A stretch of 64,000 nt of DNA from Albidovulum aestuarii (GTDB taxonomy: Bacteria; Pseudomonadota; Alphaproteobacteria; Rhodobacterales; Rhodobacteraceae), in NCBI RefSeq assembly GCF_029961185.1, contig NZ_JASBQQ010000005.1:186001-250000 (forward strand), read 5' to 3'. A model generated the notes under the pieces. That model was not told the DNA's origin. It did not search any database and worked only from the letters and a program-made list of their open reading frames with translations. Below are positions 53,015 to 61,628 of the stretch, piece by piece (the first letter of the stretch is position 1; the number at the start of each line of letters is the position of its first letter). A program made the translations under genes and the position numbers.

Positions 53015-55078
53015 TCAGAAGAACACGTACATCGCGTGGTTCTTTTCCTTGAGCATCTGTGCCGCGTTCTCAACCGTCACTTCGACCCCGAAATTCTGCC
53101 GCGGCATTCGTTGATGCCAGTTCAGGCGCGCTGCCGAATAACCACGGGACAGGAAAAGGTCCAGAAGCTGGACCCGCGTTGCGCCGTGTATCTCGACAAC
53201 CTCGTCCCAATGCAGCTCCATCAGCACCGTCGGTCGCGAGGTCTCGAGCAGGCGGTCGAGAGATTCCACCAACTTACCCTCATAACCCTCGATGTCGATC
53301 TTGATGAAATCCGGAACCCCGCCGATGTCCTCTACGATGGAAGTGAGTGAGCGGACGTCCATCTTCGCTTCTGTGAACTGCGGATGCGGCTTGAATGAAA
53401 GGCGCATCCCTGAATACCAGACCGTCGCCTGAGGCTCGTCCTTGTCGGATAGTGCGCACCAGTGCATCTGGTAGCGCTGCTCCGGGGCGAACTTCATTTG
53501 GTTAGAAGGAAGAGCGAGGTGCCGCTCGACTGCCTCGACGGCGCAGGGGTTCATCTCGATCCCGTGTACCTTTTGCAACTGTTCGAGGCGCAAGAGAAAC
53601 GTTGAGATGAAGCCGAAGTGGGTGCCTATATCCAAAGCCGTTCGGGCACCCTTCATCTCGATTAGTGTCTCCATGACGAGGCAGCTCAAAGGCTCGATCG
53701 TCCAGCCATCCTTGTGGGCGTCGCGCATCCAGGTCGCGACCTCAGTCGCCGAAATGTCAAGCCGGAATGGTGAATGGGTGGAAAAGGCTACTTCCAGTTG
53801 TTCGCCTAGATCCTGGGCCATCCAAGTCCAACCAGCTGAGCGCCGGGTCAGTTCCTGCATAAACTGATTGTAAGTCAGGCCGTTTCCTGCGGATGCGAGC
53901 CGCGCGGCCTTAGGCTGGGCGACCACCGGCCCGCCGGCGGGTGCCCCAGCCTGCCGTGCTTTCGATGCGACGATGACATCTTGCTGGTCGTCCACGCTGG
54001 TGTCCTCGGCCTGCGCATTTTCGACCCGGGGACGGGACGCTCCAATCGACGCCGCGACGTCGCCCGACTGCTGGGCAGCCGCTTTCTCGCGGCGCCTGCG
54101 CTCAAGATTTTCTAACTGGCGCTGCTTTTCCAGCTTCTTGCGCTCGACATACCGTCGTTCACGTTCGCGTTCCTGCTCTTCCAAGCGACGATTGCGCTCG
54201 TCAAGCGCAGCCTGGCGTCGCTCCTCCTGCTTTCGGATACCGCTCAGAACCCACGTTACACACTGGTCATAGTCCTTTTCACCGAGAGGCCCGCAGTCGA
54301 CCGGCTTGTCCGTCAGTACGCAGGCTGCCTGCACCCAGTAGCCATTCCGAATATCCTCGTTCCAAGTCGGATGATCTCCGTCATGGAAGTGTGTCGCCGA
54401 AGTCTCTGGCAAGCGCAGGCGGTGATCACAGCTCAGCCACTCGACGCCCAGCCCAGTCCGCTCCAGCATTTCGAACAAGGCTAAGGCCTCATTCCACATA
54501 TAATCGGCGTAATTGATGAGCTCGTCGAAATAGATAACCAAGCCCGGCTTGAGGCGATCGTGCTTTTCGAGCGCAGTGAAGATGTCAACGGTCGACGAAT
54601 AGATGTCGCAGTCGACATTTACAAATGCCACCTCACCCGGAGTTTCTATCAGGAACGGGTCGAGCGTTTCCGAGAAATAGCCCTTGACCAGCGTCACATT
54701 CTTAGGTGTGTCGGGCAGTTCGATGACTTTGAAGGGCTTTTGCCAGTCGACACGGCCGTCATCCGGGAAGCCCTCGAAGCTGTCGAAGCCATACCAATGC
54801 TGCGTGGGGAAACGCTCGGCGCAACGCCGGATCGAATTGCCGCGCCAGACGCCGAATTCCAGCCTGAGACCGGGATGGTCGCCGACCTTACTGATCGTGT
54901 CGTCCAGTACGTTCGTCCGGTTGTGCGGTTCGTCCGACGGCGCGATGAGGGACTTCTCGGCCAGCTTCGGCATTTCCTGCAGCAGGAAGCCGATATATCG
55001 CCTCATTACTGCATCATTTTCGGTCTCAGCCGCTTCTGTCATCGGGTTTTGTTCCTGCAACTGGTCCTGTTTCGTCAT
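53015..55078 (-). CDS. TylF-FkbM double methyltransferase with coiled-coil linker
   Basis: A 687-residue fusion. Residues about 60-260 are a TylF/macrocin O-methyltransferase domain: FGVWRGNSI, DSFEGFPDDG, NVDCDIYSS and YFDELI, with the Asp residues that bind metal. Residues about 281-336 are an Arg/Glu/Lys-rich coiled coil. Residues about 430-680 are an FkbM domain: ALDIGTHFGF and FIKIDIEGYEGK. The ATG at 55078 was used; a second ATG at 55042 has a clearer AGGA site. The frame is open upstream across the A10 run at the end of the FkbH-like gene, so a frameshift there would join both. Confidence 0.8.
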   Translation of the reverse strand: MTKQDQLQEQNPMTEAAETENDAVMRRYIGFLLQEMPKLAEKSLIAPSDEPHNRTNVLDDTISKVGDHPGLRLEFGVWRGNSIRRCAERFPTQHWYGFDSFEGFPDDGRVDWQKPFKVIELPDTPKNVTLVKGYFSETLDPFLIETPGEVAFVNVDCDIYSSTVDIFTALEKHDRLKPGLVIYFDELINYADYMWNEALALFEMLERTGLGVEWLSCDHRLRLPETSATHFHDGDHPTWNEDIRNGYWVQAACVLTDKPVDCGPLGEKDYDQCVTWVLSGIRKQEERRQAALDERNRRLEEQERERERRYVERKKLEKQRQLENLERRRREKAAAQQSGDVAASIGASRPRVENAQAEDTSVDDQQDVIVASKARQAGAPAGGPVVAQPKAARLASAGNGLTYNQFMQELTRRSAGWTWMAQDLGEQLEVAFSTHSPFRLDISATEVATWMRDAHKDGWTIEPLSCLVMETLIEMKGARTALDIGTHFGFISTFLLRLEQLQKVHGIEMNPCAVEAVERHLALPSNQMKFAPEQRYQMHWCALSDKDEPQATVWYSGMRLSFKPHPQFTEAKMDVRSLTSIVEDIGGVPDFIKIDIEGYEGKLVESLDRLLETSRPTVLMELHWDEVVEIHGATRVQLLDLFLSRGYSAARLNWHQRMPRQNFGVEVTVENAAQMLKEKNHAMYVFF

Positions 55079-55157
55079 ACCCGCGTAGCGGTGGTGCCGG
55101 ATCTTTTCCGGTCCTTTGAAGTGCTCGCCCCTGCCTACCTGCCCGTCATGACGGGAC

Positions 55158-56960
55158 TCAAGGACTTTTTTTTTTGACGGTTTGACCTTCGATTGACCGT
55201 GATTCAGCAGGCGCGTTCGCGGCAGCCAAAACCACCGCAAGCGTGGCACCATCCGGTTGCCGAATCTCGTCCGTCTTCTTGTTCACAAAATCGGCGATCT
55301 TGAAGTAGCCGGTTCGGGTGTAGTGATCGCTGTCGGCAAACTCCTCTGCGTCAAGCAACTCGTCGACATCAACAAAGATCGCATCCTCAAACGCGTTGCA
55401 GAATTCCCTGCACATGGCGTTGAAAGGCTCCCGGATCGCCATCGTACGTTTCGCCTGTTCGCCGTGTCGCGTCGCGGCACCGAGGATGAACAGCGGCACG
55501 CCCGGCTTCTTCAGTTCATGTGCCCGTGCGAAGGCCGACCTCGTAAGGCTCAACCGGTCTTCAAGCGGCAGCCTGCGATGAAACATCTCCTTGGCGAAGC
55601 GCAGGGCGTGGTCGGGATCGCGCATCAGTTTCTTCAGGCGGCGCGGCGGGATCGTGGCCCAGTACTTGCCACCGAATTCGTGACCGCCGAATGTGAAAAG
55701 GTTGTCAGACGGCACCGAAAAATACATCGACAGGAGCACGAGGTCGGATTCGGCAAGGCTTTTGTCGAGATCCAGCATGTCCTGCAGGGTCCAGCCGACG
55801 AAGTTTTTGAGCGGCTTGGAATGTTTAAGGTCCATTTCCCGCGCATTCAGGAAAAAGCCGACATCGTCATAACGGACAAGCATTCCCTGATCGTCTTGCT
55901 TGTTGACGAACTCGTCACGGTTAGTGCCGCAGTAGAACGAGACCTGAAGCAGGTCGCATCCACCGACAAGGCAAAGCCTCTTTTGTTCGACCTGATCCTC
56001 ACCAGCATCGAAATCGGATACCTCGGTGATCCAGTCCACCTCCATCGCCGGATCGAGATCGCCGGAAACCGGACCCACCACCTTGAATTCGGGCTTGTTA
56101 AGATACTGCCAGACCCATTGTTCGACGCCCATGTTCAGCGTGCGGCAGGAAAACGCAAAATGGTGAACGGTCGTGCCTGAAAACTTCGTACGCACGCAGA
56201 AGAAACCAACAATGCCATAGTCGCCGTAGCGGTCCTTTACATGGATCAGCCCGGCATGCATGCCAGATGTGGCCAAGAGCTTGTCTAGGTCTGCGCGCTC
56301 CTTCTCAGTATTCGCCCGCACCTTGGTAAAGTTCAGCTGGTTGGTCCGGTTCAGAAGCTCCAGCACCCGATCCATCTGACCGTCGATATCGGTGATGATC
56401 CGGATCTTGATGCCCGACTGACGGAGGAAGTCCTCGTTCGACAGCCCGCCGGTTTCCTGTTCGGAGAACTTTGTCTCCATCACCTTGTACTGCTGCAACC
56501 GGCTGTGATCGGTATCCTGTTTGCCCTTCAGTTCGGGCAGTTCAAGCAGAGTCGTGAGGTCCAGCGTTCCGTCAACACACATGAGGTTCGGATTGACGAA
56601 CCGCGCTTCCTCAAGGTTGAGGTGGTTATCATCGAGGAACAACACGTTTTCGTCGCGCAGCTGCATCCGGTCAATTATGGTCGCGATCGCCTGCCCCTTC
56701 GGTGTCCAAGCGATGTGCGGAAAAATGAAAAGATCAAAGATCCCAAGTTCTTCCAATGCCACCTTGGCCGCGTCAAAATCGTTCTTGGAACAGATCGAGC
56801 ACATGATACCACGGTCGACCAACATCCGGACGAGGTCGATGTTCTTTTGAATAGGTGTGATGCCACCCTCGGAAAGCGTGCCGTTCCAGAACGTCTCGTC
56901 CAGGTCCCAGATGACAACCTTGACTTGCGCACGCACATTGCTGACGGGGTAGTTCGACAT
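55158..56960 (-). CDS. FkbH-like HAD-IIIC protein with C-terminal SGNH-like domain
   Basis: A 600-residue three-part protein. The HAD domain (about 12-150) has WDLDET with nucleophile Asp19 and Asp21, and FLDDN. A GNAT-like part (about 185-295) has NRTNQLNFT, GDYGIVGF and SCRTLNMGVE, the FkbH blocks. FkbH proteins make glyceryl-ACP from bisphosphoglycerate or related units. The last part (about 325-570) resembles an SGNH/GDSL hydrolase: LCLVGGCD (333-336 GGCD) at the block I position, with Cys instead of Ser, and DSDH (543-546) at block V. The ribosome site (GAGG) is very close to the ATG. No ACP gene is nearby. Confidence 0.8.
   Translation of the reverse strand: MSNYPVSNVRAQVKVVIWDLDETFWNGTLSEGGITPIQKNIDLVRMLVDRGIMCSICSKNDFDAAKVALEELGIFDLFIFPHIAWTPKGQAIATIIDRMQLRDENVLFLDDNHLNLEEARFVNPNLMCVDGTLDLTTLLELPELKGKQDTDHSRLQQYKVMETKFSEQETGGLSNEDFLRQSGIKIRIITDIDGQMDRVLELLNRTNQLNFTKVRANTEKERADLDKLLATSGMHAGLIHVKDRYGDYGIVGFFCVRTKFSGTTVHHFAFSCRTLNMGVEQWVWQYLNKPEFKVVGPVSGDLDPAMEVDWITEVSDFDAGEDQVEQKRLCLVGGCDLLQVSFYCGTNRDEFVNKQDDQGMLVRYDDVGFFLNAREMDLKHSKPLKNFVGWTLQDMLDLDKSLAESDLVLLSMYFSVPSDNLFTFGGHEFGGKYWATIPPRRLKKLMRDPDHALRFAKEMFHRRLPLEDRLSLTRSAFARAHELKKPGVPLFILGAATRHGEQAKRTMAIREPFNAMCREFCNAFEDAIFVDVDELLDAEEFADSDHYTRTGYFKIADFVNKKTDEIRQPDGATLAVVLAAANAPAESRSIEGQTVKKKSP
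55166..55175 (-). other. A10 homopolymer at the FkbH/TylF junction
   Basis: Ten consecutive A on the coding strand encode the Lys-Lys-Lys-Ser end of the FkbH-like protein, two codons before its stop. The TylF-FkbM frame is open through this run. With nine A instead of ten the two genes would read as one frame of 1,315 codons from 56960 to 53015. Such runs are prone to polymerase slippage and also to sequencing error. Confidence 0.8.
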
Positions 56961-58093: not shown

Positions 58094-58654
58094 TCAGGCC
58101 GGGAAGACCTCTCCGCCCTTGCGGGCCGAAACCTCCAGAAGCCCCATGACGTAACCCGCGACCGAACGGAACGAGACGAGCGTGAACTCATCCGCGCCGG
58201 ATTCCCAGAAGGCGGCGGCGACCTGGGCCGCGCGGGTGCGGCGGATCTCGCCTTCGGCCAGCGTTTCGAAATCGACCGGGCAGAGCTTCATCAGCGCTTC
58301 CGAAGCCTTCGCACCTTTCACGGTGAAGACGGACCGCGCGTCGGAGACATCGGCGACAAGGTGATGCTCGCCCGCGAGCGCCTTTTCCAGCACCTCGACG
58401 GTGGCAACGGCCTCGTCATAGGGGACGAGGATCAGAAGTTCGTCCGGCGACATCCAGGCAGCACCCTTGTCACCGTTGAGTTCAATCCGGCGCGCGGCGG
58501 GCACGGCGGTGCCGGTCGCGGCCTTGACCGCCTTCTTCATCTTCGCCGAGGCCAGATCACCGCGCACCGTGATCATGCCGCGCAGGCCAGCCTCGGCCAC
58601 ATCGACGAAACCTGTGTGAGAAACGCCCCCCAAGGCGCTGACTGCCTTAGACAT
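58094..58654 (-). CDS. soxG: Sarcosine oxidase gamma subunit
   Basis: A 186-residue subunit of heterotetrameric sarcosine oxidase, related to the aminomethyltransferase fold. The segments SPDELLILVPYDEA and FRSVAGYVMGLLEVSARKGGEVFPA-like end region (last 25 residues) identify it. ATG 58654 overlaps the soxA end by eight bases. It is the last gene of soxBDAG. Confidence 0.9.
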   Translation of the reverse strand: MSKAVSALGGVSHTGFVDVAEAGLRGMITVRGDLASAKMKKAVKAATGTAVPAARRIELNGDKGAAWMSPDELLILVPYDEAVATVEVLEKALAGEHHLVADVSDARSVFTVKGAKASEALMKLCPVDFETLAEGEIRRTRAAQVAAAFWESGADEFTLVSFRSVAGYVMGLLEVSARKGGEVFPA

Positions 58655-61628
58655 TCTGCTTCTCCCCATCCTTGTCGTAGAAGACCGGATCGACAATCCG
58701 CGCCTTGACCACCTTGCCGTCGTCGACGGGGAAGTCGATGACCTCGCCCATCCGGTCGGGACCATGCTTCACCAGCCCCATCGCGATGCCCTTGTCGAGC
58801 GTGGGCGAATAATAGGTCGAGGTGACGCGGCCCTGCACATTGCGCTGGCCATTGGCGTTGTGCCCGTCGGCCACCGCATAGGCACCGTCGGGGATCAAGC
58901 CGCCATCGAGCGTCTCAAGACCGACGAGCTTCCAGCGCTCGGGGCTTGCCATGAACGACCGTTCATGCGCGCGCTTGCCGAGATAGTCCTCTTTCTTCTT
59001 CGAGATCGCCCACTGAAGGTTCAGGTCCTGCGGGATCACCGTGCCGTCGGTTTCATCGCCGATCATAATGAAACCCTTCTCGGCGCGCATGATATGCATC
59101 GCCTCGGTGCCGTAGGGCATGACGCCGAATTCCTCGCCCGCCGCGATCAGCGCCTCCCAGAAGGCGCGGCCTTCAGAGGCCGGGACCGCGACTTCGAAGC
59201 TGAGTTCGCCGGAGAACGAAATCCGGTGCACCCGGGCGCGGAAACCACCCAGCGTGCCCTCGCGCCATTCCATGAAGGGCAGCGCCTCTTTCGAAAGATC
59301 CATGCCGCCGAGTTTATCCAGCAGTTTCCGTGCATTGGGGCCCGCAATTGCCACTTGGGCATATTGTTCGGTCACGTTGGCGGTATAGACCTTCCAGTCC
59401 CACCATTCGCATTGCAGCCAGTCTTCCATCCAGCCATGGATGCGGTCCGCGCCGCCCGTGGTGGTGTGGCAGAGCCAGGTATCCTCGCTCAGGCGCACGA
59501 CGACGCCGTCATCCGAGAGGAACCCGTTTTCGTTGCACATCAGACCATAGCGGCATTTGCCCACCGGCAGCGTCGACATCATGTTCGTGTAGAGCATGTC
59601 GAGGAACTTGCCCGCATCCGGCCCTTTCACGAGAATCTTGCCCAGAGTCGAGGCGTCCAAGAGGCCGACCGAGTTCCGCACCTGGCGGATCTCGCGGTTG
59701 ACCGCATCGTGAACACCTTCACCCGTACGCAGGAAGCAATAGGCACGGCGCCAGTGGCCGACCGGCTCCCAATGGGCGCCATGGACCTCGTGCCAGTCAT
59801 GCATCGGCGTCTTGCGCAAAGGCTGGAAGATCTCGCCCCGCGCCTCGCCCGCGATCGCGCCCATGGAGATGGGCGTGTAGGGCGGACGGAACGTGGTGGT
59901 GCCGGTGGCCGGGATGGCCTGGTTCAGTGCATCAGAAAGCACCGCCAGACCGTTGATATTGCTGATCTTCCCCTGATCCGTTGCCATGCCGAGCGTGGTG
60001 TAGCGCTTGGCATGCTCGACGCTTTCATAGCCTTCGCGCGCCGCGAGCTGGATATCGGAGACCTTGACGTCGTTCTGCGGGTCAAGCCACATCTTGAAGC
60101 GCAAAGCCGGGCCTGCGCCCTGCGGCATGATCCAGACCGGCATGATCGGCGCTTCTGTCGCGCAGACCGCGCCCGGGGCCGCGCCCTTGCCGCCCACGGC
60201 CTTGTGGGCGTCGTCGAGAACGTCGGCGGCCGTCAGGTGACCGTTGGCCGAGCCGATGGCCGTGACCATCGCCTCGCCATCCGCGCCGGTGGCCGGGCGG
60301 TTCGGGTCGGGGCGGAACATCGCCTGTTTGTCGTCCCAGTTCAGCTTGCCGCCGCAATGGGACCAGAGATGCACGACCGGCGACCAGCCGCCCGACATCG
60401 CGACCGCGTCGCAGTCGATTGTCTCCAGCTCCGCGCCCTCGCCCGCCTGCAGGCAGACCGAGACGCCGGTCACGCGCTTGCCGCCCTTGACCTTGGCGAT
60501 GCCCTTGCCTTCCAGCACCTTGACGCCGCGCGCGCGCACCGCCTCGGGCAGGTCGCCCTTGGCCTCGGGCCGCGCGTCGATGACGGCAGGAACCGCAAGG
60601 CCCGCGTCGAGCAGCGCCAGAGCGGTGCGGTAGGCGTCGTCATTGTTGGTGACGATCACGGTGCGGTCGCCGGGGCTGACGGCCCAGTTGACGACGTAGT
60701 CGCGGACGGCCGAGGCCAGCATCACGCCCGGAATATCGTTGCCCGCAAAAGAAAGCGGTCGTTCGATGGCGCCCGTCGCGGTGACGATGTGACCGGCGCG
60801 CATGCGCCACAACCGGTGGCGCGGACGGCCGTCGCCCGGCGTATGGTCGGCGATGCGCTCGTACATCAGCAGGTAGCCGTGGTCATAGAGACCCGAGGCC
60901 ATCGTGCGGGCACGGAGCGTGACGTTCTCCATCCCTTCAAGGGCTTGGAGCGTTTCCGTCACCCATTCGTCAGCCTCCTGACCTTGGATCTGCACACCGT
61001 CCACGACGGCGCGACCGCCCCAATGGGCGGTCTGCTCGATCAGCCAGACGCGCTTGCCCTGCTTGCCTGCGGCCAGAGCGGCGGCGAGACCGGCGATGCC
61101 GCCGCCGACGATCACCAGATCGGCGAAGGCATAGGCGTATTCATAGCGGTCCTCGTCACGGGCATGCGGCACTTTGCCAAGGCCCGCCGATTGGCGGATG
61201 AAGGGCTCGAACACATGTTTCCACGCGAAACGCGGGAACATGAAGGTCTTGTAGTAGAAGCCCGCCGGCAGAAAGCGATAGAACTTGTCGTTGATCGCAC
61301 CGACGTCAAACTCAAGGCTCGGCCAGTGGTTCTGGCTGGCCGTGACCGCGCCATCGAACAGCTCGGTCGTGGTGGTGCGCTGGTTCGGTTCGAACCGGCC
61401 GCCCTCACCGAGACCCACCAGAGCGTTCGGCTCCTCGGCTCCGCTCGACATGATGCCGCGTGGGCGGTGGTACTTGAAGGACCGGCCGACCAGCATCTGG
61501 TCGGCACCCAGAAGCGCCGAGGCCAGCGTATCGCCCGCATAGCCTTGCATCTTCCTGCCGTTGAAGGTGAAGGACATCGCCCTTGACCGGTCGATAAGGC
61601 GGCCGCCTTTCTGAAGACGCGTGCTCAT
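58647..61628 (-). CDS. soxA: Sarcosine oxidase alpha subunit
   Basis: A 993-residue subunit. An N-terminal ferredoxin-like part (FTFNGRKMQGYAGDTLAS) and an NAD-binding Rossmann motif LVIVGGGIAGLAAALAAG near residue 165 are followed by a second nucleotide-binding half. A C-terminal GcvT-like folate domain (from about 610, with DASTLGKILVKGPDAGKFLD) forms 5,10-methylene-tetrahydrofolate from the methyl group removed from sarcosine. It overlaps soxD by four bases. Confidence 0.95.
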   Translation of the reverse strand: MSTRLQKGGRLIDRSRAMSFTFNGRKMQGYAGDTLASALLGADQMLVGRSFKYHRPRGIMSSGAEEPNALVGLGEGGRFEPNQRTTTTELFDGAVTASQNHWPSLEFDVGAINDKFYRFLPAGFYYKTFMFPRFAWKHVFEPFIRQSAGLGKVPHARDEDRYEYAYAFADLVIVGGGIAGLAAALAAGKQGKRVWLIEQTAHWGGRAVVDGVQIQGQEADEWVTETLQALEGMENVTLRARTMASGLYDHGYLLMYERIADHTPGDGRPRHRLWRMRAGHIVTATGAIERPLSFAGNDIPGVMLASAVRDYVVNWAVSPGDRTVIVTNNDDAYRTALALLDAGLAVPAVIDARPEAKGDLPEAVRARGVKVLEGKGIAKVKGGKRVTGVSVCLQAGEGAELETIDCDAVAMSGGWSPVVHLWSHCGGKLNWDDKQAMFRPDPNRPATGADGEAMVTAIGSANGHLTAADVLDDAHKAVGGKGAAPGAVCATEAPIMPVWIMPQGAGPALRFKMWLDPQNDVKVSDIQLAAREGYESVEHAKRYTTLGMATDQGKISNINGLAVLSDALNQAIPATGTTTFRPPYTPISMGAIAGEARGEIFQPLRKTPMHDWHEVHGAHWEPVGHWRRAYCFLRTGEGVHDAVNREIRQVRNSVGLLDASTLGKILVKGPDAGKFLDMLYTNMMSTLPVGKCRYGLMCNENGFLSDDGVVVRLSEDTWLCHTTTGGADRIHGWMEDWLQCEWWDWKVYTANVTEQYAQVAIAGPNARKLLDKLGGMDLSKEALPFMEWREGTLGGFRARVHRISFSGELSFEVAVPASEGRAFWEALIAAGEEFGVMPYGTEAMHIMRAEKGFIMIGDETDGTVIPQDLNLQWAISKKKEDYLGKRAHERSFMASPERWKLVGLETLDGGLIPDGAYAVADGHNANGQRNVQGRVTSTYYSPTLDKGIAMGLVKHGPDRMGEVIDFPVDDGKVVKARIVDPVFYDKDGEKQNV

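Follow-up and report, generated by a model that had tools for sequence, protein, structure and literature searches.

A run of ten A residues (A10) lies at the junction of two genes in a 64,000-nucleotide stretch of the Albidovulum aestuarii genome (contig NZ_JASBQQ010000005.1, positions 186,001 to 250,000; hereafter the window, in whose coordinates positions are given). The run closes a gene encoding an FkbH-type protein, and the gene downstream, which encodes a protein with TylF and FkbM methyltransferase parts, occupies the frame that is reached when one A is lost. The arrangement is probably explained by a slippery A run that is tolerated at the end of a separate FkbH gene, with the TylF-FkbM frame lying one base away by happenstance. 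The locus is a candidate for a known kind of feature, an A run prone to slippage at the end of a gene.

The source DNA carries T10 on the plus strand at 55166-55175, which reads as A10 in the FkbH-type gene on the minus strand (56960..55158). The encoded protein ends in ...QTVKKKSP*; after the run come AGT (which uses the tenth A), CCT and then TGA. Unshifted, the frame ends with the stop at 55158. With one A lost or two gained, no stop occurs for 716 codons, until the end of the TylF-FkbM gene at 53017-53015; the third frame, entered by a gain of one A or a loss of two, is closed after nine codons, at 55137-55135. The initial annotation had described a KKKSP end with its ten A two codons before the stop, the TylF-FkbM gene in the one-A-loss frame with no intervening stop, and a combined frame of 3,945 bases with nine A; the sequence agrees, the frame is open to 53015 and the arithmetic holds (56960-53015+1 = 3946, minus 1). 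Two marks of genes that use slippage are present: a coding-sequence A/T run of roughly nine or longer, and an open frame with a meaningful product at a small change in run length (the 716 codons with one A fewer). The third mark, conservation of run and frame arrangement in relatives, was absent from the FkbH ends, and no counterpart of the exact junction was found.

The position of the run within the FkbH-type protein speaks for its tolerance. The protein scores 153.4 bits against TIGR01686 (curated cut-off 146.65), with the HAD-IIIC/FkbH region at residues 13-287. Its C-terminal part is probably SGNH/GDSL-like: for the structure model, built with 22 orthologues as input (mean predicted local distance difference test score, pLDDT, 85.5), a GDSL esterase was a weak match (rank 37, E 6e-4), in agreement with an earlier SGNH call. 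The last confident helix spans residues 549-567, and the conserved fold ends near residue 567; in the orthologue alignment conservation ends at ...SDHYTRTGYFKIAxFVN, beyond which the tails of relatives vary and residues 570-600 are unalignable. The pLDDT falls below 50 at residues 570-580 and 582-600. This tail, predicted to be disordered and lineage-specific, contains A10, and a change of frame there should therefore not harm the FkbH enzyme. In its own frame the tail has a codon score of -0.002, a value equalled or exceeded by 91% of real coding windows. The DNA past the conserved FkbH end was also compared with that of five relatives, and the local alignments stayed below the 95% level of 300 mononucleotide shuffles. 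An ancestral stop loss, by which the tail would be former intergenic DNA, is suggested by the protein tails and is not claimed, as these alignments fail the shuffle level.

The TylF-FkbM protein has matches above the cut-offs to Methyltransf_21, Methyltransf_24 and TylF, together with an NCBIfam fkbM_fam match; TylF (PF05711) reaches 28.1 bits against a cut-off of 23 and FkbM (PF05050) 45.6 against 22.7. The TylF part (13-320) and the FkbM part (389-675) lie in one ordinary frame, and each matches separate genes of relatives, the best of them at loci L149 and L150. The likely start is the ATG at 55042, with an alternative ATG at 55078. The gene identities proposed initially were thus borne out for FkbH by TIGR01686 and for TylF and FkbM by Pfam and NCBIfam, SGNH having only the weak GDSL structure match.

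The comparison with relatives points to two separate genes. FkbH matches were found in 18 of 394 genomes of the family, own genome included, many of them weak, and a search through named genomes yielded 173 relatives, the best 80 of which were retained. The FkbH ends were read at 40 loci, own included, eight of them without a normal end (L010, L031, L032, L043, L044, L048, L049 and L078). From -130 to +200 around the FkbH stop, none of these loci except our own has an A run of at least nine, and the only other A runs of at least six are an A8 in L025 (Loktanella salsilacus), where the downstream frame opens no earlier than 133 bases past the FkbH stop, and an A6 in L037. The FkbH of L008, 62% identical, has an intact end and no A run. 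TylF or FkbM is either a separate gene in relatives or not found nearby: in L149 TylF is a gene of its own (331 aa) upstream of FkbH, and in L150 FkbM (304 aa) lies 37 bases downstream of it. FkbH homologues end before the break, and TylF and FkbM are separate in L149, L150 and L021, so that homologues do not continue across it in one frame, as they would across a broken gene. Since FkbM follows the FkbH stop at 36 bases in L021 (same frame), at 37 bases in L022 (-1 frame) and at 35 bases in L024 (+1 frame), with FkbH ends that are nearly alike, the frame relation between FkbH and FkbM drifts. Such a comparison of run lengths had been proposed initially, with separate genes and no junction homopolymer in relatives as one part of the outcome that would speak against a fusion; this part was obtained, and the fusion is weakened by it.

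A downstream open reading frame (ORF) that extends back without a stop into the FkbH tail, in a frame other than that of FkbH, was seen in 11 of 23 relatives (L022, L024, L027, L028, L029, L030, L033, L037, L038, L046 and L047), several of which are overlapping genes and two of which, L033 and L038, have an identical tail. This count was made apart from L002-L004 and L007, whose contigs equal those of L027, L025, L045 and L034 in length, from L006 and L008, from the distant L010 and the more distant L049-L077 and L079-L100, from loci cut by a contig end (L031, L060 and L009), and from those with a broken FkbH frame or no normal end (L032, L043, L044, L048 and L078). Within the last group, one contig of Paracoccus cavernae carries two FkbH copies (L044:6001-7570 and L078:6001-7775), each matching as two segments whose joint lies near query residues 121-138, so that both copies seem to have a frame break at much the same position.

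The run is rarer than the frame geometry. The A-run series of the genome is steep, with 29 A8, three A9 and one A10 (33 runs, a tally derived from 38 overlapping A8 hits, 30 of which were looked at; for L174-L176 the readout is that of a neighbouring run), and 5 of the 22 genomes in the genus, own included, have any A10. On the 309-kb contig, where a simple gene caller gave 243 genes, 4 of 94 co-directional pairs with gaps of 0-300 bases would be joined by a one-base loss and 15 of 94 by a one-base gain near the stop. Stop-free windows of 41 codons make up 626 of 1664 intergenic ones. The frame geometry is therefore less special than the run, yet not trivial. Another gene of this genome, that of a MurR/RpiR-type regulator (308 aa, L186:1495-2421, contig C21), likewise ends on an A run: its QKKH* end falls on an A8 six bases before the ORF end. 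The SIS and HTH_6 domains of the regulator are above the Pfam cut-off, and NCBIfam equivalogs are below theirs. Prokaryote work cited in a fungal study describes such repeats as skewed to gene termini, specifically the 5' end (PMC2621210).

We propose that the two genes stand in tandem, as separate units within a string of genes for what may be glycan modification, and that the long A run arose in the disordered, lineage-specific tail of FkbH. It would be tolerated, and effectively neutral, because shifting the frame there keeps the enzyme fold complete. FkbH and TylF-FkbM would be translated separately. RNA polymerase probably slips on A10, and some transcripts may carry the joined frame; these would represent leakage rather than an enzyme under selection.

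The features of the locus and of the genes downstream are collected in Table 1. A locus of Defluviimonas sp. WL0002, L027, taken to be of the same genus, has the same gene order without TylF-FkbM, its FkbH being 78%, its counterpart of the second FkbM gene 30% and its third gene, the counterpart of the glycosyltransferase-like gene, 42% identical. Among 394 family, 22 genus and 390 order genomes, overlapping sets, a full-length TylF-FkbM match was found in the own genome only, and a miss is possible as the family and order scans scored at most three candidates per genome; none of 72,556 plasmid records holds 80% of TylF-FkbM in one place. Near the gene string, 58094-58765 is presumably a sarcosine-oxidase-gamma-like ORF, and an ORF that looks similar by eye lies 5' of FkbH in L027 (5218-5889).

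Table 1. Features at the FkbH/TylF-FkbM junction and downstream of it (window coordinates).
Feature	Position	Strand	Basis
FkbH-type gene, 600 aa	55158..56960	-	ORF; TIGR01686; weak GDSL match of the structure model
Lineage-specific FkbH tail, residues 570-600, contains A10	55161..55253	-	pLDDT and orthologue alignment
A10 run (T10 on plus strand); AAA codons 597-599 of the FkbH gene plus the A of its AGT codon	55166..55175	-	Read from sequence
Stretch between run and likely TylF start, 41 codons open in the TylF frame	55043..55165	-	Frame translation and codon score
TylF-FkbM methyltransferase gene, 675 aa	53015..55042	-	ORF; Pfam and NCBIfam domains
Second FkbM-family methyltransferase gene, 308 aa	52003..52929	-	TIGR01444, 38.8 bits (cut-off 37.7)
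Glycosyltransferase-like gene, 293 aa	51119..52000	-	Glyco_tranf_2_4, 20.0 bits (below cut-off 27.5)

Several observations weigh against a tolerated run beside an accidental frame. This A10 is the sole A10/T10 in a genome of 4,242,458 bases. Among pairs with gaps of 80-160 bases, like that of FkbH and TylF-FkbM, a one-base loss joins none of 36 and a gain three of 36 (the own pair falls outside this group, probably because the simple caller picked an upstream start). The bridging codons are mildly coding-like: their score of 0.075 stands between the means of real coding windows (0.139) and open intergenic windows (-0.095), only 16.8% of the latter reaching it. A strong ribosome site for TylF was looked for at ATG 55042 and not found, the site there being modest, with 27.7% of random sites equally strong. 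A natural fusion of FkbM and FkbH in a Streptomyces nonribosomal peptide synthetase (NRPS) protein, described below, shows that the domains can share one chain. A relative sharing the FkbH/TylF-FkbM junction itself did not turn up, which leaves the exact junction without comparison.

An error of sequencing or assembly, with the true run of another length and the locus a single giant gene, had been held initially to explain the arrangement equally well. This parity is not upheld, as FkbH is complete and separate in the relatives examined, its partners are separate, the frame relation drifts and the tail is predicted to be disordered. Homopolymers are error-prone, and the joined frame runs without interruption from start to finish across its mildly coding-like bridge; nevertheless, the genes are separate in the relatives examined, and on the 309-kb contig the two other runs of at least eight that fall within called genes, an A8 and a C8, leave their genes unbroken. 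Genome completeness is 99.99% and contamination 0.13%, figures that say nothing on base accuracy. We regard such an error as very unlikely. It also seems very unlikely that the run serves phase variation, in which replication slippage would vary its length and thereby change the site where ribosomes leave FkbH and the coupling to TylF-FkbM. Phase variation commonly targets glycan genes, and the three frames here do stop at different places (55158, 55135 and 53015). However, the FkbH fold is complete in all three and TylF-FkbM can start from codons of its own, which leaves no clear ON/OFF effect, and a long run at the junction does not recur in relatives.

The remaining alternative is that transcriptional slippage is used, one A being dropped (or two added) in a useful share of transcripts to yield a 1,314-aa FkbH-TylF-FkbM protein beside the separate ones. 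The precedents make slippage itself plausible at A10, because long A runs slip in published bacterial cases: an A11 in Citrobacter rodentium tssM1 gives about 20% frameshifting in a direction equivalent to that required here (PMC4256274), nine A residues slip in Thermus dnaX (PMC1088944), and poly(A) runs of endosymbionts are corrected in 12-50% of transcripts (PMC5009743). The uniqueness of the run in the genome, the open, mildly coding-like bridge and the Streptomyces protein are on the same side. Against this, the run, the frame and the fusion are all unconserved in relatives. In one reporter study, the efficiency of insertion was at least double that of deletion on A7-A11 runs in lacZ, E. 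coli RNA polymerase made no deletions on the shorter of the poly(A) runs under test, and there was no slippage below eight A (PMC6260861); genome-wide E. coli data have deletions seldom in homopolymers (PMC5574713). A single inserted A would lead into the third frame with its early stop, and the RNA fold at the junction is no better than that of shuffles (z 0.26). Use of slippage is thus unlikely. Of the initial proposal that slippage yields a fused enzyme, the slippage remains plausible from published cases, and the functional FkbH-TylF-FkbM fusion, which finds no comparative support, is improbable. There is likewise only a slim chance that A10 acts as a transcriptional splitter, with some transcripts giving a three-part FkbH/TylF/FkbM enzyme and the rest separate proteins.

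Other elements at the junction were considered and set aside. Ribosomal frameshifting is not favoured, as the join needs +1 or -2, and -1 leads to the third frame with its stop after nine codons. The RNA fold, indistinguishable from shuffles, gives no sign of a stimulator at the run. No terminator-like site is listed at the run (the 6.3-kb region has 11 such sites, against a shuffle mean of 5.6), and the search for a TylF promoter near it gave a single weak match, located at the start codon, where shuffles give 2.7 on average.

The literature searches returned no paper combining FkbH and slippage and none combining FkbM, TylF, methyltransferase and fusion. If the locus is ordinary, it is a clean case of a slippery run surviving at a gene end and mimicking a hidden fusion gene. 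Were slippage real and used, the site would join two complete enzymes instead of repairing or shortening one, and, if A10 did act as a splitter, consecutive steps of glycan modification would proceed sometimes in one chain and sometimes apart.

The tolerated run that we favour can be set beside several known systems. Non-programmed slippage on A/T runs is the behaviour expected of a long tolerated A run, although it was measured in E. coli, Buchnera or reporters, that is, in another host (PMC6260861, PMC5574713). In Thermus thermophilus dnaX the run likewise lies inside a coding sequence; slippage there shortens one protein to a useful short form, whereas at A10 it would add a second enzyme (PMC1088944). 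In tssM1 the long A run is also found shortly before a stop (28 nt), and one A fewer, mimicked by a one-A deletion construct, leads to a longer product. That locus is, however, one interrupted gene, both lengths of whose product are seen on Western blot and both of which are needed (PMC4256274), while the A10 locus consists of two complete genes with separate homologues. The putative fusion itself resembles a 1586-aa protein on a plasmid of Streptomyces sp. NBC_00637 (L196:1578-6338), in which FkbM and FkbH share one polypeptide; in that protein FkbM precedes FkbH, carrier and condensation domains accompany them, and all are encoded by one gene in one ordinary frame.

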